Positions 19,256 through 43,520 of a DNA stretch of 64,000 nucleotides are shown here, one piece after another. This DNA is from Nymphaea colorata. Lineage: Eukaryota; Streptophyta; Magnoliopsida; Nymphaeales; Nymphaeaceae. Under the pieces are notes generated by a model. The model saw nothing but the letters and a program-made list of their open reading frames with translations, ran no database searches and had not been told where the DNA came from. Location: assembly GCF_008831285.2 (NCBI RefSeq), contig NC_045141.1, forward strand, positions 24,599,315 through 24,663,314, given 5' to 3'. Position numbers and translations under genes: made by a program. How positions within the stretch are numbered: position 1 is the stretch's first letter; every line of letters begins with the position of its first letter.

Positions 19256-20644
19256 ATGTGCCGTGTGCGAGATCCGGCGGTGGTGGTGCTGATGCTCCCC
19301 TTCCCTGCGCAGGGCCACCTGACCCCTCTCCTCCATTTCTCCCGCCTCCTCGCCCTCCGCCGCCTTCCCGTCGTCTTCATCAGCTCATCCGCCCATAACC
19401 GGCAGGCCAAGCTCCGGCTGCAGGGCTGGAACTTGGCTTCCTTCCCCTCCATCTCCTTCCACGACCTCCCCCTCCCTCCCTTTCCGGTACCAGAACCGGA
19501 CCCCGAGTCGGTCATCAAGTTCCCCGCCCACCTCCAGCCGATCTTCGACGTCTCGGACATGCTCCGAGACCCGCTGGACCAACTGCTGGGCTCGCTGGCG
19601 GCGTCGTCCAGGCGCGTCGTCATCGTGCACGACCCGCTCATGTCCTACGCCGCGGAACTCGGGTCCAGGTACGCCAACGTTGAGGCCTTCGCCTTTAGGT
19701 GCGTCAGCGCCTTCTCCTCCCTTTCTTTCCAACTCAACCAGCGGAGGGATCCAAAGCCGGCCAGAGAGGGTCTGCATCTGGTGTCGCCAGAGGGCTGCTT
19801 CACCAAAGAGTTCCTGGAGTTCGTCCACCGCCGCCACCATGCCGTCCCACTGACCGCCGGCGAAATCTTCAACACGTTCGATGAGATGGAGGGCGAGTTC
19901 ATGGAGAAGCTGACGGAGATGCCACGGTACGAAAATCGAAAGATATGGGGCATAGGACCCATCTTCCCGATCCAATTGACAAAGCGTTCGGATCCGAAAC
20001 CGGGTCTGTTCAATTGGCTGGACATGCAACCGGACCGGTCCGTTCTTTACGTCTCGTTCGGGTCGAACTCGTCGCTGTCGTCGGCTCAGGTCTCGGAGCT
20101 CGCCGCCGGGCTGGAGCAGACTGGCAAGAGGTTCCTCTGGGTCCTCCGAGCAGCGGATCGAGGTAATATTTTCAAGAAGGGAACCAGACCCGAGATCCAC
20201 TTGCCCGAGGGGTTTGAGCAGCGGGTCCGCGGATCGGGTCTCGTGGTGAGAGGGTGGGCTCCGCAGCTGGAGATCTTGAGCCACGGCGCCGTGGGTGGGT
20301 TCCTCAGCCACTGCGGGTGGAACTCCTGCATGGAGAGCTTGAGCCTGGGCGTGCCGCTGGCGACTTGGCCGCTGCACTCGGACCAGCCGGCTAATGCGCA
20401 GCTGGTGACGGAGGTGCTGAAGGTCGGCGTGGTGGTGAGGGCGTGGGGAGGAGGAGCTGAGGAGGTGGTAACGGCCGGGAAGATAGAGAAGGCGGTAAGG
20501 CGGCTGATGGCGGACACGCCGGAGGCCGAAGCGATCCGAGAGAGATCGGCAAAGGTGCGAGATGCGGCTCGGGGTGCGTGGGCTCCCTCTGGATCATCTA
20601 CTGCTGCCTTAGACTCCTTCATACGCTTGGTAACCAGAGCATAG
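19256..20644 (+). CDS. UGT93-type zeatin O-glycosyltransferase-like, complete
   Basis: Intronless gene of 462 codons, the usual length for family 1 plant glycosyltransferases. The start ATG has A at -3 and follows a TATA box at proper distance. Residue His21 in PFPAQGHL is the expected catalytic base, and Asp126 in VVIVHDPLMS is placed for the activating Asp. WGIGPIF lies near 231 and the SVLYVSFGS loop near 262-270. The 44-residue PSPG box runs from Trp334 to Gln377 and ends PLHSDQ, followed by ANAQLVTEVLKVG, as in zeatin O-glucosyl/xylosyltransferases. The enzyme would transfer a sugar from UDP-sugar to a hydroxyl, probably on a cytokinin-like acceptor in the cytosol. No organelle signal is seen. 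GC content is far above the flanks. Acceptor and sugar donor remain uncertain. Confidence 0.93.
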   Translation: MCRVRDPAVVVLMLPFPAQGHLTPLLHFSRLLALRRLPVVFISSSAHNRQAKLRLQGWNLASFPSISFHDLPLPPFPVPEPDPESVIKFPAHLQPIFDVSDMLRDPLDQLLGSLAASSRRVVIVHDPLMSYAAELGSRYANVEAFAFRCVSAFSSLSFQLNQRRDPKPAREGLHLVSPEGCFTKEFLEFVHRRHHAVPLTAGEIFNTFDEMEGEFMEKLTEMPRYENRKIWGIGPIFPIQLTKRSDPKPGLFNWLDMQPDRSVLYVSFGSNSSLSSAQVSELAAGLEQTGKRFLWVLRAADRGNIFKKGTRPEIHLPEGFEQRVRGSGLVVRGWAPQLEILSHGAVGGFLSHCGWNSCMESLSLGVPLATWPLHSDQPANAQLVTEVLKVGVVVRAWGGGAEEVVTAGKIEKAVRRLMADTPEAEAIRERSAKVRDAARGAWAPSGSSTAALDSFIRLVTRA

Positions 20645-23480
20645 TTCGCCTTCATCGATACACGTTGGGGAAGATCCATCTTTTATCCAGGGATCATGTT
20701 CATTTCAATTCATCACGACTAGTCGCTAAGGCCATGTTGCATGAAGATAAAGTTTCTCATGATGTCGAAAAGGGGATATTTTGAGTGAGATATCGAGAGA
20801 CGTGTTCTCCAGAGATGTTCTAGATTTGAACGGGGCAGAGTCACGGACAGCTATGTAAGTTTTCATTTTTTTAGTTCAATTTTACTTTCTCTGTCTAGAA
20901 TTGTGGACAATTTGTACCATTTCTTTTGGAATAACATAGCTTGGTGCGTGTAAAGGTGTTCCAATCGGATCATACCAACTGCCACTGAGTAGAAAGTTGA
21001 TGCTCAAGAGGTGGCAACACTTTATAGATACTAAGTGGACTAAATGTTGACAACGCACACACATAAAATATTGATTCTTTTTTATTTGATTCGTCGCTGT
21101 TGTTGGTGGATGGCAAGGATGCGTTTAGCAAAAAAATGAACAATTAATTAAGCTAAGAGAAAGGATTGCGTGCAAAAATAACTGTTCGGATGATACGAAA
21201 CTCATTCTATTGATTAAGCACATGACCTTGGCGATTAAGTTGCTAACGATTGTAAAAACAACAAATCGATATATGAATCTGGGAAGTTTTGAAGTTAAAT
21301 TTGAACGGTAGACCCGTGAATGGAAGCAATAATTAACCGGCATCTCAGTTGCATGAATTTGGAAAATCAATTTTGAAGAAAAACTGGAATTTGCAGACAA
21401 ATTGTTCAACGTTCTGACTCGCCCCAACCAGGGATCTTTCCCGTGGCCTGACTGGTCGGGGAAGCCCGAGGCAAAGGCAATCAAATTGAGAGTGACAAGG
21501 GCCCGGCCGGCGGGCAGAGTCTGAACAAGCTGACGAGAAAAAGAAAAGGGAAAAAAGGGATAGAGTCGCCGCAGAGAATCGTCAATGAGGGCAGGGCCCG
21601 CCCTGCATGCCCCGTGATTAATAAAAAAGAAACATCTACAGAAAGGCTCCCAAATTTTGAGCTCTTCACAAATACACGCCCAACAATTGAAAGTTTAAGT
21701 TTAAAGGCTTAATATTTATTAGTAATTCTCAAACAGTTGCTTTTAAAACTTAGATTCACCGACTTAGATTCATTCAAAACATGAAACGGTGAGAGGATTT
21801 TCTTATGAAACTTAGATTCATATACTTCTCGTTACCATACGCTCCCCATAAAGAAATCAATGAATGTGAAAGAATGAATCTCCTGCGGAGAGGCAAAACT
21901 ATGATGCAAGCAAGGAGGAAAGGAAAAATTAAGGAGAAGGCAATGCAGCAGCATGGAAACAGGTTGCTATAAAACCTACAACCTCTTCATTTGCTGCATA
22001 TGGATTCAACAAATCCCTTCTTGGATTCAGCTAGACGCCATAAAACTTGAACGGGAGATTCTTGTCTTTGCTATTCTTGGGACTCAGTCAGAGAGAGAGA
22101 GATAGAGCAAAGGAAGAACCAGAACAGTGACAGTGAAAATGAATATAGGTGCTGAACAGTAAGTCTGAAGAAAGGGGATTTGAAAGATGGACTGAAGATT
22201 AGGAATGCTAAACCGAAACGGCATGAATGGCACTCTTCTAACTTCCTTCACCATGTAAAATAATTGAGGGTTTGGCTTCTAATTCAACTGACTTGGCCAT
22301 GGTAAGAAAGCTGGTGCCCTCTGCCTGTTGCATGCTGCCTGGTAGTGGCCACTAGGAGACGGTTGAGTTTAAAAGTGGTACCACTTTACGAAAAAGGCTG
22401 TCTAATTATCTATAGAACAAGCAGTAGTGGAGAAGGTGGAGATCAGGCAAAAACAAGAGTTCAGTCACACATTTTGGCGTTCCCACTTTCCGGCGAAGCT
22501 TTTAAAGTATTCTCCAATTGTCCCTGCAAAAAGCTGATCTGTGACTTGTCATATTGGCTACTGCCATTCGCTCTCTCTCTCTCTCGCATATGGCAATTTT
22601 GCTTAACGTCGGCCAACGTGAGCAAAAAGAGTGAAAAGCCTCAGTGGGCACTCAAAAAGGAAGAGGGAGACGTAGCAAACTCTGAGACGACGAGTTCCAG
22701 TGGCCTCGACAAAGTTTGTCGACCATGTCGACTGCCTCTTGTTCAGAATATCATCCACTGACTGATCTTTCACTCAAGAACATATAGACTGTGCCAATTC
22801 TGATTCCTATTATTATATTCGTTCATCCAGTCCTTATCAACGCCATCCCTCTTTTCTCCTAAAGTACGCTACACTTATCTCTATATTGTACTTTTTTCCA
22901 TCATACAATATATGTTTATCTGTATACTTTAAGATATCGTTGGTTACAAAAAAGAAGAAAGCTGAGAAGGATAGAGGCTCCGCCAATTATTTACTCGCCT
23001 CCAGCAATCATCTTTCTCCGGTACACAGCATCTGGTCGCAGAGACAGAATGAGTTAGTGAGAACGCTTCCAATGTAGTGCCAAAAATTTATAATGGACAT
23101 GTCGGTGCGCTCAACCATTTGTGGACCAGCACTTTCCTGCAGGAAAGTTAAAACGGAAAGGAACAGATGAGCAATCTTTGAAAGAACTTTTCCCCCTATC
23201 TGTCGGAGACACGGAAAATCGTTTGGTTGTGCATTGGAACCACCAAAACCTCAACTACCCAATACGTCTCAAGCCAGACGGCAGCTTCAGTTCCCAATTT
23301 CCGGTTCTGTTCACATCACAAGCAACGCCGTGAAAGATGTTCCGATCATCTCGACCGGCGCCGTGAACGCCGGAAATTGAAAGGAACCCAAAATTTGGAT
23401 TGCTCTAACCATTCTTCTTACGTTAGATGTGTATCTTGCCTCTTTCTTCGTGCTTCCGCGCGATCAGATCGCACGTCATA
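20645..23480. other. Intergenic between UGT copies 2 and 3
   Basis: About 2.8 kb without a recognisable gene on either strand. Short GA/CT runs near 22090 and 22570. Open frames of up to 138 codons (22345-22761) begin with non-ATG codons and show no known protein features. Confidence 0.5.
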
Positions 23481-23713: not shown

Positions 23714-25099
23714 ATGTGCCGCGTCAGTGATGCGCCGGTGGTGGTGCTGATGCTCCCTTTCCCTGCACAGGGCCACCTGACCCCTCTCCTCCATTTTTCC
23801 CGTCTCCTCGCCCTCCGCCGCCTTCCCGTCGTCTTCCTCGGCTCCTCCGCCCATAACCGGCAAGCCAAGCTCCGGCTGCAGGGCTGGAACCTGACTTCCT
23901 TCCCTTCCATCTCCTTCCACGACCTCCCCCTCCCCCCGTGCCCCGTACCAGACCCGGACCCCGAGTCGGCCATCAAGTTCCCCGCCCACCTCCAGCCAAT
24001 CTTCGACGCCTCGGACCGCCTCCGAGACCCGCTGGACCAGCTGCTGGCCCCGCTCTCGGCGTCGTCCCGGCGCGTCGTCGTCGTGCACGACCCGCTTATG
24101 TCCTTCGCCGCGGAACTCGGGACCAAGTACCCCAACGTTGAGGCCTTCGCCTTCAGGTGCATCAGCGCCTTCTCCTCGCTTTCCTTCCAACTGAACCAGC
24201 AGAGGGATCCGAAACCGGTCAGACAGGGTCTGCATCTGGTCTCGCCCAAGGGCTGCTTCACCAAAGAGTTCCTCGAGTTCGTCCACCGCCGCCACCACGG
24301 CGTCCGACTGACGAAAGGAGAAATCTTCAACACCTTCCATGGGATCGAAGGAGAGTTCACGGAGAAGCTCTCGACTCTGCCGCAGTACAAGGACCGAAGG
24401 GTATGGGGCATTGGACCCATTATGCCGCTCCAATTGGAAAAGCGTTCGGACCCGAAATCGAAGCTGTTCCACTGGCTGGACAAGCAACCCGACGGATCCG
24501 TTCTTTACGTCTCGTTCGGATCGAACTCGTCCCTGTCCTCCGCTCAGATCTCCGAGCTAGCCGCCGGCCTTGAGCGCAGCGGTCAGAGGTTCTTGTGGGT
24601 GCTTCGAGCCCCGGACCGGGGGGACATTTTTAAGAAGGGAACCGATCCGGAGATCCGCCTGCCGGAGGGGTTCGAGCAGCGAGTCTCCGGGACGGGCCTC
24701 GTGGTGAGAGGCTGGGTTCCTCAACTTGAGATACTGAGCCATGGTGCGGTGGGTGGGTTCCTTAGCCACTGTGGGTGGAACTCTTGCATGGAGAGCCTGA
24801 GCCTGGGTGTGCCTCTGGCAACTTGGCCGCTGCACTCGGACCAGCCGGCGAACGCGCAGCTGATGACTGAGGTGTTGAAGGTGGGGGTGGTGGTCTCGGA
24901 GTGGGGCGCAGCCGAGGAGGTGCTGCCGGCGGAGAAGATCGAGAGATCGGTCAGGCAGCTTATGGTGCCCACGAATGAGAGTTTGGATGTACGGAAGAGG
25001 TCCGCAGAGCTGCGGGAAGCAGCACGGCACGCCTGGGCTCGAGGCGGCTCGTCCCGCACAGCCTTAGACTCGTTCGTGGATTTGATAACTAGACCATAG
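23714..25099 (+). CDS. UGT93-type zeatin O-glycosyltransferase-like, complete
   Basis: Intronless, 461 codons, and very similar along its whole length to the copy at 19256 (same MCRV start, same catalytic His21 in PFPAQGHL and Asp126 in VVVVHDPLMS). The PSPG box (334-377) begins WVPQ instead of the usual WAPQ and ends PLHSDQ. The main differences are in the 205-255 region (FHGIEGEF, LPQYKDRRVWGIGPIMPLQ) and the last 70 residues, where substrate differences might arise. One residue is missing after the PSPG region. By family it adds a sugar to the O-hydroxyl of a zeatin-like acceptor in the cytosol. The substitution in the PSPG box does not touch the conserved HCGWNS or final Asp-Gln that contact UDP-sugar. 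Confidence 0.93.
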   Translation: MCRVSDAPVVVLMLPFPAQGHLTPLLHFSRLLALRRLPVVFLGSSAHNRQAKLRLQGWNLTSFPSISFHDLPLPPCPVPDPDPESAIKFPAHLQPIFDASDRLRDPLDQLLAPLSASSRRVVVVHDPLMSFAAELGTKYPNVEAFAFRCISAFSSLSFQLNQQRDPKPVRQGLHLVSPKGCFTKEFLEFVHRRHHGVRLTKGEIFNTFHGIEGEFTEKLSTLPQYKDRRVWGIGPIMPLQLEKRSDPKSKLFHWLDKQPDGSVLYVSFGSNSSLSSAQISELAAGLERSGQRFLWVLRAPDRGDIFKKGTDPEIRLPEGFEQRVSGTGLVVRGWVPQLEILSHGAVGGFLSHCGWNSCMESLSLGVPLATWPLHSDQPANAQLMTEVLKVGVVVSEWGAAEEVLPAEKIERSVRQLMVPTNESLDVRKRSAELREAARHAWARGGSSRTALDSFVDLITRP

Positions 25100-34903: not shown

Positions 34904-36370
34904 ATGGGTCACATAGTGATGCTGCCATTCTTGGCATGGGGACACTTCAAACCCTTCGTCACCTTCGCCAACCTGATCATCCACCACCACCCATCCCACA
35001 CCATCACCATCGCCACCACCCCTCTCAACCTCCCCAAGCTCCGCTCCATCCTCCCTCCTTCTACCCCCATCCGCCTGGCTGCCCTTCCCTTCGACCCCTC
35101 CTCCCACGGCCTTCCTCCCGACGGCGACTGCACCGACTTCCTCCCTCCCCCCCTCATCGTCCGTCTCTGCTACGCCTCACGCGCCCTTCGCCCCGCCCTC
35201 GAAAGACACCTCCGCGACCTCCCCGTCGCGGATCAACCGCCGTGCCTCATTGCTGACATCCTATTTGGCTGGACGGTGGACGTTGCTTCCATTACTGGCG
35301 CTTTTCATGCATTCTTTGCGACCCAAGCTGCCTATGGCTTTTGCATCTACATGTCACTGTGGCTGCACCTGCCTCAAGCCATGACGGATTCCGACGAGTT
35401 CGAGTTACCGGACTTCCCGGACGTCCGCCTCCACCGCACACAGATCTCCGCGTATGCCAAGACGATGACGCCCTCTGACCCCTGGCCCGTTTTCCTCCGA
35501 GAAGAGTGGGCACTGAGATTTGGCACAGGTGGGCTGTTGGTAAACTCGGTGAGGGAGATGGAACCCAAGGGCATGGAGCGACTCCGCACCTTGTTTCCAG
35601 GGAGACCCATCTGGAGCATCGGCCCTGCGCTCCCTTCTGCCCTTCCAGTTCCAGCAACTGAGTCTTCATCATCACTCGCGAAGCGGCCGGGGATTTCGCC
35701 AGAGGATTGCACTAGATGGCTTGATCACCATCCACCCGGCTCGGTTCTCTACATGTCGTTCGGTTCGCAGAACACCATCTCCGCGTCTCAGATGAAAGCT
35801 TTGGCGAAGGGTTTGGCGGAGAGTGGGGTGGCTTTCATATGGGTGGTAAGGCCGCCGGTGGAGTTTAAGTTGGAGGAAGAGTTCAGATCGTCGGAATGGT
35901 TGCCGAAAGGGTTCGAGGATAGGATACGGGAGAAGAAGCGAGGATTGGTGGTGAGGAACTGGGCTCCGCAGTTGACCATCTTGGCCCACGAATCAACGGG
36001 TGGGTTCTTGAGCCACTGCGGGTGGAACTCGGTGCTGGAGAGCCTGAGCCATGGGGTGCCTCTCATAGGGTGGCCTATTGCGGCGGAGCAGTTCTACAAC
36101 TCGAAGATGATGGAGGAGGAGATGGGGGTGGGAGTGGAGCTGGCGAGGGGGAACCAGGCGGAAGTCAGGAAGGAAGAGGTGGTGAGGGTGGTGGCGTTGG
36201 CGATGGGAGAGACGGAGAAGAGGGAGGAGATGAGGAGAAAGGCCAGTGAAGTAAGAGAAGTGTTAAGAGGGGCGTGGAGGAAGCAGGTTGGTGACGGTGG
36301 TGGAGGCAACTGCGTCGGTTCATCCTTTGCCGCCATGAATGATTTCCTTGAAACTGCGTTTTCCAGGTGA
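34904..36370 (+). CDS. UGT92-type UDP-glycosyltransferase, complete
   Basis: Intronless, 488 codons from the ATG at 34904. The upstream frame is open but has no earlier ATG. His14 in FLAWGHFKP is the catalytic base and Asp118 in CLIADILFGW the partner Asp. The loop SVLYMSFGSQNT lies at 280-291. The PSPG box spans Trp353 to Gln396, opening WAPQLTILAHE and ending IAAEQ, followed by FYNSKMMEEEMGVGVEL. The FxxWGHxxPF start, the ISxxD linker and the AEQFYNSK ending match plant UGT92-like enzymes, whose acceptors are poorly known. It transfers sugar from UDP-sugar in the cytosol. It belongs to a different family from the UGTs at the left of the window and has a broken paralogue 0.8 kb downstream. 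CDS is GC-rich. Confidence 0.93.
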   Translation: MGHIVMLPFLAWGHFKPFVTFANLIIHHHPSHTITIATTPLNLPKLRSILPPSTPIRLAALPFDPSSHGLPPDGDCTDFLPPPLIVRLCYASRALRPALERHLRDLPVADQPPCLIADILFGWTVDVASITGAFHAFFATQAAYGFCIYMSLWLHLPQAMTDSDEFELPDFPDVRLHRTQISAYAKTMTPSDPWPVFLREEWALRFGTGGLLVNSVREMEPKGMERLRTLFPGRPIWSIGPALPSALPVPATESSSSLAKRPGISPEDCTRWLDHHPPGSVLYMSFGSQNTISASQMKALAKGLAESGVAFIWVVRPPVEFKLEEEFRSSEWLPKGFEDRIREKKRGLVVRNWAPQLTILAHESTGGFLSHCGWNSVLESLSHGVPLIGWPIAAEQFYNSKMMEEEMGVGVELARGNQAEVRKEEVVRVVALAMGETEKREEMRRKASEVREVLRGAWRKQVGDGGGGNCVGSSFAAMNDFLETAFSR

Positions 36371-37172: not shown

Positions 37173-38084
37173 CCAATGGCGTCTGTGGCAGCAGCTCCCC
37201 CAAACGAAGGCTGACTCCGACGAGTTTGGGCTGCCGGATTGTGCTGACATCAGACTCCACCGCGCACAGCTCCCCCACAATGCCAGGTGGCCGGATTTCC
37301 TCGGGGAAGAGATCAGCATGATTCTCGGCGCAGACGGGGTCTTGGTGAACATGGTAGAGGCGATGGAGATCAAGGGCGTGGGCCGAATCACTACCAGAGT
37401 CAGAAATTTTTGATTGGGAGCACTCATTGATCTTTCGCTTAAAACGACTCACTACCAGGGTAAAAAAAAAAAAAAATAATTGAGGGGCACTAATTGATCT
37501 TTCGCTTAAAAGCGATGGAGACCAAGAGCGTGGGCCGATTCACTAGCAGTGACCCACGCCAGTCACACAGTTCACCACCATCTTTCCAGGAAGACCCATC
37601 TGGTGCATCGGCCCCGCGCTGCCTTCCTCCTGCCTCTCGACCGACCCATCGAAGGCGAAATCACTACTCGTGAAGGAACCGAGCATTTCCACGGAGGACT
37701 GCATGGAATGGCTCCACCTCCACCAACCCGTCTCGGTTCTGTACACATCGTTCGGTTCGCAAAACACCATTTTCGCGTCTCAGATGAAAGCGCTGGTGAT
37801 GGGTTTGGAGGAGAGCGTGGTGGCTTTCATATAGGTGGTGTGACCGCCGGTGGAGTTTAAGTTGGAGGAAGAATTCAGATCGTCGGAATGGTTGCCGAAG
37901 GGGTTCGAGAAGAGGATGAGGGAGAGGAAACGACGGTTGGTAGTGAGGAATTGGGCTCCCCAACTGACCATCCTGGCCCACGAATCAACGGATGGGTTCT
38001 TGAGAGTTGAGCCACTGCGGGTGAAACTCGGTGCTGGAGAGCCTCTTCCATGGGAAGCCGCTCATAAGGTGGCCTATTGCGGCG
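37173..38084 (+). pseudogene. UGT92-type pseudogene, part 1 (5' of copia insertion)
   Basis: Homology to the intact UGT92 begins at about its codon 150 (LWLHLPQAM) and runs to the PIAAEQ region, so the N-terminal third is missing. Inactivating changes include a duplicated, scrambled segment at 37361-37549, in-frame TAG where the intact gene has Trp (FIWVV, near 37830) followed by a TGA, an extra ~7 bases (AGTTGAG) inside the PSPG box near 38005, and a base loss a little further on. The copy breaks off at CGGCG (38080-38084), where a copia element was inserted. It resumes at 43217. Confidence 0.92.
37361..37549. repeat. Local tandem duplications inside the UGT92 pseudogene
   Basis: GCGATGGAGA-CAAG-GCGTGGGCCGA occurs at 37361 and 37511, and ATTGATCTTTCGCTTAAAA at about 37426 and 37492, with a poly-A run between. 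The duplication disrupts the frame. Confidence 0.75.
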
Positions 38085-38316
38085 CTTTTCATAGCCAAAA
38101 ATTTAGTATCACAACAGGTTTGTTTCAACATTATCAACAGTTTGATCCAATCTCTACATGATCTTGTTATCTCATTCAGAGACTTACCTAGACTTACCTG
38201 AAACTGTGTAACACGCCCATTATAAATATGTACGCCCACTATAAATATATAGATTGAATACAAACAACTGAAATTTTCTCTCTTTCGTTCTCTCATTCAC
38301 ATTTACAAGTTTATTA
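38085..38316 (+). repeat. 5' LTR of copia element 2 (first 24 bases missing)
   Basis: Aligns with the 3' LTR from its base 25 (CTTTTCATAG) onward and ends TTTATTA before the primer site. It contains local expansions (ACTTACCTAG/ACTTACCTG and two CGCCCA-TATAAATAT units) not present in the 3' copy, so the LTRs are considerably diverged. Confidence 0.85.
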
Positions 38317-38328
38317 TGATATGAGAGC
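38317..38328 (+). other. Primer-binding site of copia element 2
   Basis: TGATATGAGAGC directly after the 5' LTR; ten of twelve bases match the plant copia consensus TGGTATCAGAGC. Confidence 0.7.
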
Positions 38329-38344
38329 ATCTTCAATCGAGCGC

Positions 38345-38408
38345 CCCAATCGATCATTATTATGATAGGCCGGATGTCATCAGTATAATAGGCCAGATGT
38401 CATCAGAG
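38345..38408. repeat. Short tandem repeat at the edge of the captured segment
   Basis: ATAGGCCGGATGTCATCAGT and ATAGGCCAGATGTCATCAGA, two copies about 23 bases apart, lie between the primer site and the captured gene fragments. Confidence 0.8.
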
Positions 38409-38434
38409 TTGAGTCTGCTCTCCTCTGATTAATG

Positions 38435-38790
38435 CCGTGGCGCTGGCACAAAGAGACCCGTTGGGAAACGGCGACGGTCGTAGCAGGCGTGGCGAGTGAG
38501 GGTACACCTGAGCTTGCAGTAGTGAGACTCCACACCTTGACGTTCTTGTCCCAGGCCTGCCTCTCAATCTCTCTGAATCTGGTAAGGCGGAAAAGGTTGC
38601 ACGTGCGGTTTGGCCGGAGAGACGAGGAACCGGTACCACCCTGGATCCTGAGATGATGGTGGGAGAATAGGTGTTCGGGGAGAACCAGACGCAGCTGACC
38701 CAATTAGTGTGGCTGTCGGCGTCCTGAATCGTGTACTTACATCGAGAGCGTTCCAGAGCTTGATGGTGCGATGGCCTTCTGAGCAGAGGC
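38435..38790 (-). pseudogene. Captured RACK1 fragment (antisense in copia element 2)
   Basis: Read on the minus strand, 38790 downward gives [10 protein letters not shown], then, after a frame shift, [20 protein letters not shown] and [11 protein letters not shown]. After a foreign insert of roughly 85-90 bases it continues [13 protein letters not shown] and then, with small frame slips, a TVAVS...SLCAS-like end. This order is the WD40 repeat region of the plant RACK1 (guanine nucleotide-binding subunit beta-like) scaffold, a 40S ribosome-bound protein. Frameshifts and the insert make it non-functional. The insert (about 38560-38645) was not identified. Confidence 0.87.
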
Positions 38791-38811
38791 GCTCTGCCAC
38801 GTTAAAAGAAT

Positions 38812-38937
38812 TTTTCCAAGGTTTATGATGTAAATATCGTCAGTCCTGCGCTTGAAGAGGTGGCGCTCCATCTGGAAGTCGTAGTTCTTGGTGCCAAAGT
38901 GGACGTCAGCTGTGAAGCATCATTTGTATGTTCGCCA
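38812..38937 (-). pseudogene. Captured 40S ribosomal protein SA fragment (antisense in copia element 2)
   Basis: On the minus strand, 38937 downward reads ANIQMML, one frame slip, then [33 protein letters not shown]. This is the near-N-terminal segment of plant 40S ribosomal protein SA (usual form [33 protein letters not shown]). The match stops after LGK and the RACK1 fragment follows about 20 bases later, so the two genes were joined here. It is too short to be functional. Confidence 0.9.
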
Positions 38938-38939
38938 AC

Positions 38940-39660
38940 TTTTTAGTGTGAGCCCTGCAACTCTCAAATTCACGTGGGAGCGATGCAACGATCTTGTCCA
39001 GTACAATCTTGTCCAGTCATGGATCTTGAACTTGATCCATAAATACTTGATTGTTAATGTGATCCATGCAACGTCGGCAGCAGAAGTTTGGAGGGACCTT
39101 AAAGCCAGATTCACCCAAATGAATGGACCTCGCATATACCAAATACAACAACAAATCATAAATTGCAGACAACATCAATCATTCAATGCAGCTTACTAGA
39201 TAAGGGCTTGTGTGAAGAATTAGGATTATATATATCGATGTTCTTAATTGTTCTTGTGGGTCCGTAAAAACTATTAAGATCAACCAACAGGACCACCTTA
39301 TGTAATTTCTAATGGGACTCAACAATAGTTATGCAACTGGTAGGAGTCAACTCATATTAATGGATCATCTTCCAACCATTGCCAAGGCGTACTCTCTTCT
39401 CATCCAATAAGAAAAACAAAGAGACGTTAATATTATTCAAAATGATCAAAGGACTTCTATCTTGTTGTTCAGTCTCATGATGGAGACAAACATAATAAAA
39501 TCAAGGAGAAGGGAAGACTTCGACTAAAATGCGAGCATTGCGGGAAAGTCGGCCACATTAAGGCAAAGTGTTATTTCCTTGTTGATTTTCCTAACAAGTC
39601 GGGTTCTTCCAATGCACCAACAAGACCAAAGGTGAACGCCACGAGGTCCCCTACTATCGA
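38940..39660 (+). pseudogene. copia gag remnant, element 2
   Basis: Begins abruptly at about PATLKFTWERCNDLVQ and continues WILNLIHKYL, SAAEVWRDLKARFTQMNGPRIYQIQ, typical of copia UBN2-type gag. A CX2CX4HX4C zinc knuckle (CEHCGKVGHIKAKC) lies at about 39530-39571. The usual gag N-terminus is absent and its place is taken by the antisense host fragments. Stops follow codon NAAY (about 39197) and further on. Confidence 0.85.
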
Positions 39661-42600
39661 CTAGTCCCAAACTCAGTTATTTCGAAAATTTCTTGAGTTC
39701 AAAGAAAACTCAAGCCAAGGTACCAATGACCCCAAAATAAATCTTTCATGTAAGCTCCCATCATTCATTTCTTGTGCCACAACCAGCCAATCATGAATTC
39801 TTGACACCGGTGCAACACACCACATCACCAATGTCTTATCTATCCTTGACCAACCCATAATCATAAATCATCCACCAATCCACCTACCCAATAACTCTAA
39901 AACTATTGTCTCACATGTAATAGATGTGATTATTTCCCCCACCATTACTTTCAAAAATGTTTTATATGTCCCAACATTTCATTTCAATCTCATCTGCATA
40001 CTAAGCTTTGTAGTGACTCAAAATGTGATGCAAAGTTTAATGAGAACTTTTGTTTGTTGCAGGACCGTCACTCGATGACTACGATTGGAACAGGTAAATT
40101 GGAAAACGGATTGTACGTACTCAATGAAGAAAGATTTGCTGTTAGCACAACCACGATCAAACTTATACATTGGCATCTCAGACTTGGGCATGCTTCTAAT
40201 CCTAAACTCCTTACTTTATCTCACTTGAAACTCATTGATTCCTATATGTCATTTGATAATTGTGATACTTATTTTGTTGCTAAAAGCACTAGACTTCCCT
40301 TTCCAACTAGTTCTATCTCTACTCATGCACCTTTTGAATTGATTCACTGTGATGTTTGGGGAGGCTACCAGACACCTTCATTTAAGTGGCGCACATTATT
40401 TCTTAACTATAGTAGATGATTTTTCTCGACCTACATGGATCTATGTTATGAGACACAAACCTGAAGATTTTTGCATGATTAGAAGTTTTGTCACACTTAT
40501 AGAAAATCAATTTCAAACAAAAATTAAACTTATTAGGAGTGATAATGGGACTGAATTTTTTTCTCAAGATATGCAAAATTTTCTTCATGAAAAAGGAATT
40601 GATCGTCAACATAGTTGTGCTGCGACACCACAATAAAATGGAGTAGTTGAACGCAAGCATAGAGATCTTCTAAATATGGCTTGATCCCTTCTTTTTCAAG
40701 CAAATTTGCTCGTGAAATTTTGGGGAGAATGCATTACCGCAACTGCTTATCTACTAAATAGGTTGCCCATGGATGCACTTCACAATAAAACTTCTTATGA
40801 AATCTTGTTCCAAAAAGCCCCAACTACAAACACTTACGCGTGTTTGGATGTCTATGCTATGCCCATAATATTTATAAAAAACATAAATTTGATATGTGTG
40901 CAAGAAGATGTATCTTTCTTGGATATCCATATGGAAAAATGTCATATCAAGTGTATGATCTTGAAAACAATGTTTTGTTCACCAGTAAGGTTGTTCGTTT
41001 TTGTGAAAACTATTTTTCTTAAAAAAGTGAGAATATTATTAATGGAGATGAAATAGTAGTGTTTCTCTTACCATTCAGTAATCAAATCTTAAGCGAACAT
41101 GAGATCTTTTCAAATTCAACCCAACATCAAGATCCTATCCCTGATTTGCAAACAAATCATGACCACCACAATATTCAACCTAGTAATGAACTAGGCAACT
41201 AGGCAACCAAACCCAAGATACTAGTAATATCAACCCAGACACCACCAATAATTCCATCCAACTCCGTAGGTCTTCCCGCCCAAGACATATGCCCAATCAC
41301 CTTAAGGACTATAAATGTCCTTCTGCCCTACCCATTTCCAACAAGTTGTTAACGAGTGATGTTCGACAACACCAAAAGATACATGTTATCCAATTGCATC
41401 ATATATTGATGTCTCCAATTTCACCTCCTATTATCTATGTTTCATGACTACCCTACTTAAGCAACATGAGTCTTCATCTTTTACCCAAGCTATGCAGGAC
41501 CCAAAGTGGCGAGAAGTCATGCGTGTTCAAATTGATGTATTGCAAGACAACTAGACTTGGACCGTCACCAAGCTACCTCCCGACAAAACCCCCATCGGTT
41601 GCAAATTGGTGTTCAAGATCAAATATCAATCTTATGGATCCGTTGAAAGATACAATGCCCGCATTGTTGCCAAATGATACAATCAGACTGAAGGTGTTGA
41701 TTATAATGAAACTTTCACCCATGTTGCCAAAATTTCTACCATCCCCGTTTGCTCGTCCTTGCAGCCATTAAAAGGTGGCACCTATTTTAGGTTGATGTTA
41801 ATAACGCATTTCTTCATGGCGACTTAGTAGAAGAAGTACATATGCAGTTGCCACCTTGGTTCACTCGACAAGGGAAAAAAGATATGGTATGTCGATTGAA
41901 CAAATCCATTTATAGACTTAAATAATTGTCAGGAAATTGGTTCTCTAAATTGACAACATTTCTCACAAGTTTGGGTTTTTCCCAGTCAAAGGTAGATTAC
42001 TCATTCCTTGCCAAAACCATGATTAGAGAAAGGTTCTTTCTAGTAATCTATGTAGATGATATAATTATTGCAGGCGATGACTTTGGGAATCAAGAATATC
42101 AAATATGTGATGAATGAAAAATTCAAGTTAAAAGACTTGGGCAAGCTCAGATACATGCTCAGGATTGAAGTTACAAGATCTGAAAGAGGGATATTTTTAT
42201 CCCAAAAGAAATATCTCCTCAATATTTTACATGAAACAAACTATATGAGAGCAAAACCATATGACTCTTCTATGGAACAACACTTGAGGCTTGATAATGA
42301 TGTCCTGAAAAAAGCCAGTCAATACAGAAAAATCATTGGCAAACTCATATATTTGACTATAACTAGACCCGAGATCGTACATACAGTACATATATTAAGT
42401 CAATTTATGAGCAAACCTCGCATCCCGCATAGAGAAGCAATGAATCGTCTTCTAAAGTACCTAAAGGGGAACTGCAGGCTATGGAGTATTATTGTCTTCA
42501 GAATATCCCATCCAACTTAAGGCATATTGTAATTCAGATTGAGCATCTTGTCACATGACTCGCAGATCGACAAGTGGATAATGCACTATGATCGGCAACA

Positions 42601-42984
42601 ATCTCATTACATGGAAAACAAAAAAACAAACAACAGTTTCTAGGTCTTCTGCTGAAGCTGAATACCGATCCATGGCACTTACGACATGTGAACTCATATG
42701 GCTTAAAGCTCTTCTACACTATTTTGGGATATCTCACACAGAGCCGATCACTTTATTTTGTGATAATCAAGCCGCAATGCACATAGCAGCCAATCTTATG
42801 TTTCATGAGCAGACCAAGCATATTGAAATTGATTGTCATAGACAAAATTCTAAGTGGAGAGATTCATACTCAGTTTGCGCTCTCTTTTCAGCAATTACAG
42901 ACATATTCACTAAGTCACTAGGACTAGAAGTGTTTCAAACATTAAAAAGCAAGTTGACACTCTTCAATCCAGGAACGCTAACTT
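39661..42984 (+). pseudogene. copia pol remnant, element 2
   Basis: Protease (LDTGATHHIT near 39800), GAG-pre-integrase (WHLRLGHASNPKLL near 40170), integrase core with Asp in HCDVWGG (40351), Asp in RSDNGTEF (about 40540) and Glu in VVERKHRD (about 40649), RT with IYVDDI (YVDD at 42049-42060), and RNase H with SSAEAEYRSMA and CDNQAAMHIA near 42645-42790. Frameshifts and stops are frequent (for example at 40419, 40636, 41056, 41535, 42115). Inactive. Confidence 0.9.
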
Positions 42985-42993
42985 AAAGGGGAG

Positions 42994-43216
42994 TGTTGGA
43001 AAGATCTAACAGATAAGCTTTTCATAGCAAAAATTTTGGTATCACAACAGTTTTGTTTTATCTTTATCAATAGTTTGATCCAATCCCTACATGATCTCAG
43101 TTATCTCATTGGGAGACTTACGTAGAACTGTGTAACGCCTACATAATATGTAGATCTGTCATGAATGCAAGTGATTTCTCTCATTCGTTCTGTCCTTCAC
43201 CTTTACAAGTTTATCA
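42994..43216 (+). repeat. 3' LTR of copia element 2
   Basis: Starts TGTTGGAAAGATCTAAC after the polypurine tract and ends TTTATCA at the CGGCG duplication. TGTTGG...CA ends are typical of copia LTRs. Confidence 0.9.
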
Positions 43217-43520
43217 CGGCGAAGCAGTTTTACAACTCGAAGATGATGGAAGATGATGGAGGAGGAGATGGGGGTGGCAGTGGAGATTGGCGAGGGGGAA
43301 CCAGGGGGAGGTGAGGAAGGAAGAGGTGGTGAGGCCGAGGGTGGTCAGGTGGGGTTGCTGATGGGAGAGACGGAGAAGAGGGAGGAGATAAGGTGAAAGG
43401 CCGGTGAAGCAGGGGAAGTGTTGAGAGGGGCGTGGAGGAAGAAGGGCAACGGTGAGAATGGTGGCACGGAAACGGGATCTTCCCTGTCGGAATTGAATGA
43501 CTTTAGTGCAACCAGGTCAA
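43217..43520 (+). pseudogene. UGT92-type pseudogene, part 2 (3' of copia insertion)
   Basis: Continues the copy broken at 38084, starting at the CGGCG duplicate and AAGCAGTTTTACAACTCG (AEQFYNS in the intact gene), through KMMEEEMGVG, EVRKEEVV and the C-terminal GAWRKQ region to about the SxLxxxNDF end. It has a small duplication (AAGATGATGG repeated), a stop in ATAAGGTGA near 43389, and several indels. With part 1 it was once a contiguous second UGT92 gene. Confidence 0.9.

Follow-up and report, generated by a model that had tools for sequence, protein, structure and literature searches.

How pieces of several host genes came to fill, in the opposite sense, the leader of a copia element is the question raised by the window, a stretch of 64,000 nucleotides on contig C4 of the Nymphaea colorata genome; parents and further copies of these pieces were searched for in the same 408-Mb genome. 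The element lies on the plus strand at 38085–43216 and is decayed. It splits a copy of a gene which, from our reading of its sequence, we take to be UDP-glycosyltransferase-like, and is flanked by a 5-bp CGGCG duplication (38080–38084 and 43217–43221), the uninterrupted paralogue at 36076–36120 being TATTGCGGCGGAGCAG. The Ty1-copia hallmarks are present: two LTRs, a primer binding site (PBS), a polypurine tract and the 5-bp target-site duplication. The 5' LTR (38085–38316), as aligned to the 3' LTR (42994–43216, first letters TGTTGG), lacks the first 24 nt of U3 and is followed by the PBS (38317–38328), identical at 10 of 12 positions to TGGTATCAGAGC of the relatives. The gag-pol region (38947–42984, the pol part read by eye) is decayed and lacks the N-terminus of gag, and the polypurine tract AAAGGGGAG was read directly at 42985–42993. 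The two LTRs aligned with 172 matches, 24 substitutions (24/196 aligned positions) and 35 gap columns, which indicates that the insertion is old.

The left target-site duplication abuts the 5' LTR at 38085 despite the loss of exactly the first 24 nt of U3 (compare 42994–43017), and a start of plus-strand synthesis 24 nt inside U3 may have been the source of the shortened LTR. The UDP-glycosyltransferase-like copies are arranged in tandem, one uninterrupted (35587–36287) and one split by the copia element (37576–38084 and 43217–43445), with further short matching stretches at 414–531, 20243–20358 and 24751–24816. The window also holds large diverged duplicates (1–835, 19256–20652 and 23714–25099) that are 77–83% identical. 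In gag, at about 38988–39017, approximately 15 nt are duplicated relative to the copy L005.

The minus strand of 38325–38944 consisted of six pieces of four host genes in the order RPSA, D, RACK1, C, RACK1 and D, antisense to the copia element. Counted from the PBS, these were the 3' part of the gene D ORF (38325–38438), RACK1 piece a (38439–38555), two joined exons of gene C lying inside RACK1 (38549–38637, with a left boundary ambiguous by a few bases), RACK1 piece b (38639–38775), which shares 6 bp of the parent gene with piece a, a second gene D piece (38774–38810, 33/37 identical and about 40 bp from the first piece within gene D) and RPSA (38811–38944), with exon 2 (38811–38836) joined to exon 1 (from 38837). 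The first gene D piece contained a 23-bp tandem duplication (38354–38399), missing in nine other copies aligned. In a phmmer search, 38809–38910 on the minus strand matched residues 25–57 of a 40S ribosomal protein SA chain (E = 5e-13) and 38649–38738 on the minus strand matched a RACK1 chain (E = 5e-12); no match was obtained with 38440–38560.

The parents of all four genes were found in the same genome, 84–92% identical by piece. DNA matches placed the RPSA parent on C1 (91%, E = 1e-32) and the RACK1 parent on C11 (90%, E = 8e-47, with 86% for the second part). The unnamed gene C was located on C1 (C1:29884985-29885049 and an exon about 790 bp off; 92%, E = 3e-18) and gene D on C9 (C9:20555643-20555809; 86%, E = 9e-10, further parts 84% and 89%). 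Gene D is a short ORF, and Pfam at its cut-offs gave no family for it, for the RPSA and RACK1 pieces or for gene E described below. The identity of the RPSA and RACK1 pieces is certain, as the protein matches are joined by DNA matches to genes of the same genome.

The first-pass annotation of this locus had reported RPSA and RACK1 sequences on the minus strand within a copia element, with the LTR and the primer site on one side and a gag lacking its N-terminus on the other. That observation was confirmed by the matches given above; the 5' LTR and the PBS-like site border the segment on one side, and gag starts at about 38947 without the N-terminus that the relatives have. The annotation counted two genes in two pieces, and the four genes of the mosaic rule out a two-gene chimera; the stretch of about 20 bases which it noted between RPSA and RACK1 is really the 37-nt gene D piece. 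Its pairing of RPSA and RACK1 as 40S-associated proteins has no visible meaning, with pieces of genes D and C lying between and inside them, and was rejected. A leftover RACK1 intron was likewise ruled out as the source of the gene C piece, which matches another locus and has its own intron removed.

In the RPSA piece, a GT-AG intron of 1.33 kb was missing: exon 1 of the parent ends with GACG before gtattcc, exon 2 starts with GTATTTAC after ttttaag, and the window joins both with one base changed at the join. The gene C piece lacked a GT-AG intron of about 790 bp, the join running from TTCAG (before gtttga) to AGAGATT (after aaatcag). Each RACK1 or gene D piece comes from a single stretch of its parent and is uninformative on splicing. 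With gene E included, four introns of three genes (RPSA, C and E) were absent at their splice sites. Because the RPSA and gene C introns were lost at GT-AG sites, the template was in all likelihood mature mRNA, and the use of host mRNA as such is, on the sequence comparison, nearly certain. Since these splice sites belong to the minus strand, the RNAs were host mRNAs in sense, and the element holds their antisense copy. Antisense host transcripts are unlikely templates, because splicing used the sense-strand sites.

The full mosaic was found once in the genome. The search with 38520–38950 gave eight matches (7/7 candidates scored), which besides the window itself were seven short matches to parent genes or apparent paralogues. 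Gene D with part of RACK1 (38439 to about 38520 of the window) was located behind the PBS at 11 other loci, one of which, L010 (C5:3637532-3637654), is short and degraded and reaches only to the equivalent of 38478. The 11 aligned copies had the order LTR, PBS, gene D, RACK1 and then an extra stretch of about 230 nt, partly missing in L007 and L023 and absent in L010 and L016; gag with its N-terminus came after the leader in nine of the 11. With a joined comparison row serving as the parent, 191 columns were comparable. The window, L024 and the consensus of an eight-copy group had the same derived state in 15 of them. In 9 columns, some located where RACK1 meets the leader, L024 and the eight-copy group were derived without the window, and in 5 the window alone was derived; no column had a derived state common to the window and only one of the other two. 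These shared derived columns indicate a single entry of gene D and RACK1 in an ancestor, followed by amplification.

A gag tree with a midpoint root was built from 21 of the 23 rows given, two being too short and dropped. The window, L024 and the eight copies, i.e., the ten rows with gene D and RACK1, formed one clade (99/99), and L047, L040/L041 and L042/L043 were placed outside it; the tree left open the order within the clade and among these outer relatives. From the pattern of columns, the window lineage probably split off first. The gag N-terminus was either lost in the window, or the founder was defective and recombined with a relative. Divergence (36/415 for the unique pieces against their parents, 19/172 for the shared pieces and 24/196 for the LTRs) was tried as a means of dating the window mosaic and rejected, since these values do not tell a single capture from two.

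The relatives L042 and L043 represent the empty state, in which the PBS (degraded in L043) and about 20 nt are followed by gag. The leader of L047 is nearly the whole antisense spliced mRNA of gene E (C9:11741847-11742565), which has 130 codons in three exons, and both introns (172 and 113 bp, GT-AG) are gone. The alignment score of this leader was 376 with the spliced gene, 218 with the unspliced gene and 17 with the other strand. The spliced alignment had 339 matches, 33 substitutions and 79 gap columns, the second splice join differing by GG/T. The copy begins in the last codons of gene E, where six nucleotides (CAGAGC in the host) match the 3' end of the PBS, and reaches the gene's 5' region beyond the ATG. 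It terminates in ATCAGAGC, and the native leader comes next; no poly(A/T) tract or 3' UTR was present in this insert. The sequence ATCAGAGC is read as a second PBS remnant, although it could be a small target-site duplication. A second PBS remnant at the insert end was also seen, degraded, in L040 and the L012 group. The extra stretch of about 230 nt in the copies with gene D and RACK1 turned out to be largely gene E exon 1, and the 12/12 candidates obtained with it were gene E and a second C9 locus (two) and copia copies (ten). Given this identity, the capture of gene E probably preceded that of gene D with RACK1; alternatively, recombination between elements united the parts.

Host parents were found in three of the four lineages outside the family of the window whose leaders were searched (L047, L050 and L053, not L055). 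In L053, gene F (C12, 86%), a PC4-like exon (C1, 93%) and a piece of a C7 gene were all antisense. The PC4 assignment rests on the exon, as the Pfam hit (E = 0.009) was below cut-off. The C7 gene piece has two parts (96% and 73%) with the intervening stretch lost, sits in the middle of the leader away from the PBS and replaces about 100 nt of leader common with the sister L078; q536-744 of L053 had further matches at C1:5862196 and on C13, C11 and C9. The L050 leader, found once in the genome (26 matches, 24/24 candidates), contains a sense piece (93%, C2) directly joined to an antisense piece (75%, C4), which from the parent ORFs are presumably 11S-globulin-like and HSP20-like, respectively. 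Pfam at its cut-offs gave no family for either piece, PDB gave no useful match for the globulin piece or for an ORF of L058, and no parent of the first 488 nt of the L050 leader was among the matches. As the match of L050 q995-1072 adjoins copia coding sequence, it was not counted as a host gene. For the L055 leader, a repeat family with 42 matches, no host parent was visible among the 40 of 73 candidates scored; L055:642-1400 is the long repetitive leader of another copia group with many diverged copies.

Of the ten genes with an assigned orientation, nine were antisense (RPSA, RACK1, C, D, E, PC4-like, F, the C7 gene and HSP20), genes D and F being oriented by their ORFs only, and one, the 11S globulin of L050, was sense. 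A fair coin gives this split or a more extreme one in about 2% of cases, a figure to be read with the genes of one mosaic not being independent. The elements L044, L045, L050 and L053 form one gag clade (100/99), and all have leaders of about 0.9–1.1 kb. Leaders turn over much faster than gag, because L044 and L045 share one leader while those of L050 and L053 differ.

The host pieces were located between the PBS and the native leader, and at the PBS join the host sequence reads CAGAGC in gene E and GAGC in gene D. At least four matches to the PBS 3' end occur at 0.3% of 3989 positions of the gene D locus and at 1 of 409 in the gene E stretch, which is the join itself. Three lineages allowed a comparison of this join with the host parent, and one of them, L053, had no clear match. 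Short matches were also seen at the D/RACK1, RACK1/C and RPSA/gag joins. Together, the data make it reasonably probable that the copia leader was made by antisense reverse transcription of mature host mRNAs, presumably primed at the PBS. Plus-strand strong-stop DNA ends in a copy of the PBS. Its 3' end (CAGAGC) would miss the minus-strand PBS, anneal by 4–6 nt to an mRNA trapped in the particle and be extended, so that the mRNA is copied antisense toward its 5' end. Reverse transcriptase could move from one trapped mRNA to the next (D, RACK1, C, RACK1, D and RPSA) and would finally rejoin the element at a PBS remnant, as in L047, or at a short gag match, as in the window. The copy would then integrate and be amplified if gag-pol was intact or regained via recombination. 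The return to two mRNAs (D-RACK1-C-RACK1-D) suggests that there were few RNAs per particle.

Several observations count against this mechanism: L053 gave no clear match at its PBS join and has its C7 gene piece away from the PBS, the leader of L055 had no visible host parent, and the splice joins of RPSA (one base) and gene E (GG/T) are imperfect. A further difficulty is L050, because one-way antisense copying does not give a junction of sense globulin and antisense HSP20. The junction counts against strict strandedness, and the sense piece would need an extra step, e.g., a switch to a cDNA strand. That piece would be easier to understand if the usual template switching among co-packaged RNAs had taken minus-strand synthesis from the element RNA to a host mRNA and back, and mRNA templates, shown by the intron loss, and short matches at the joins are equally expected of such switching. 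However, minus-strand jumps onto an mRNA yield sense inserts, yet nine of the ten genes are antisense; antisense host transcripts, if they were the templates, would lack splicing at the sense sites, and neither the second PBS remnant nor the way in which inserts begin at the 3' end of the PBS is explained. This route is regarded as unlikely. Double-stranded cDNA fragments made in the particle, joined end to end and patched in by end joining before or at integration would account for the mixed orientation in L050 and for mosaics with short matches at the joins, but predict neither the antisense bias and the PBS start nor a copy of gene E that begins in the last codons and passes the ATG, and such an origin, too, is doubtful.

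Insertion into a chromosomal copia leader was also considered. One or more LINE-made processed pseudogenes, maybe nested and inserted antisense, would be intron-free, and the direct repeat ATCAGAGC flanking the L047 insert could be their target-site duplication. The lack of a poly(A/T) tract and 3' UTR in L047, the same PBS position at which inserts of different lineages begin and the return of the four-gene mosaic to two of its genes make this explanation very improbable. Helitrons, Pack-MULEs and filler DNA at breaks typically capture multi-gene mosaics, which fits the window, but DNA-level capture would have kept introns, and four were absent at the splice sites of three genes. Moreover, a repeat scan of 38280–39010 revealed five pairs with arms of 10–21 nt and no inverted repeats bounding the insert, of the Pack-MULE terminal type or otherwise. 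DNA-level capture was rejected as the least credible origin. The first-pass annotation had named a separate Helitron or Pack-MULE with its own ends as the finding that would contradict it; the repeat scan gave no inverted repeats of such an element around the insert, and part of the mosaic occupies the same place in 11 other copies. Its view that host pieces sit antisense inside a reverse-transcribed unit is supported by the intron-free pieces, and the comparison it proposed, of introns in fragments and parents, favored mRNA templating for RPSA and gene C. Other copies of the chimera, which it suggested looking for, were found for gene D with part of RACK1 and not for the full mosaic. Its interpretation as a whole is partly supported.

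Gene capture by LTR elements is already known, and PBS-anchored antisense copying of host mRNA would add a checkable signature: the insert should be antisense and spliced, open with a short match to the 3' end of the PBS and stop close to the 5' end of an mRNA, where a second PBS remnant lies. If the mechanism holds, whole families would produce LTR transcripts containing RNA complementary to host mRNAs, hypothetically a source of double-stranded RNA against essential genes. In titles and abstract starts of open-licence papers, a scope with most subscription journals outside it, PBS-primed antisense capture of host mRNA was not described.

One close likeness is to maize Bs1, an LTR retroelement carrying segments of three host genes (PMC13317346); the pieces found here are, in contrast, antisense, begin at the PBS and fill the leader. 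Transduced pieces are usually in the sense of gag-pol, according to the sections available of a 2020 review (PMC7264820). The window resembles such transducing elements in carrying several host genes and differs in that all four are antisense (gene D by ORF only). Host genes within LTR elements were also reported for rice and sorghum (672 and 1,343 captured genes), and the main text of that report, as far as available, does not use the words "orientation", "antisense" and "intron", the feature not being treated in those words (PMC3726574). Antisense sequences inside plant LTR elements are known from the additional ORFs of Grande, RIRE2 and Retand; these ORFs are located between pol and the 3' LTR, and the same review describes their origin as unknown, as it does for most antisense ORFs of plant LTR elements (PMC7264820), whereas the sequences described here lie between the PBS and gag and their parents were found. 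Finally, the chimeric retrogenes of Magnaporthe, as presented in the accessible part of their report, are likewise fused cDNAs of different transcripts arising by double template jumps, in that case during LINE reverse transcription and here in the leader of an LTR element (PMC2104539).
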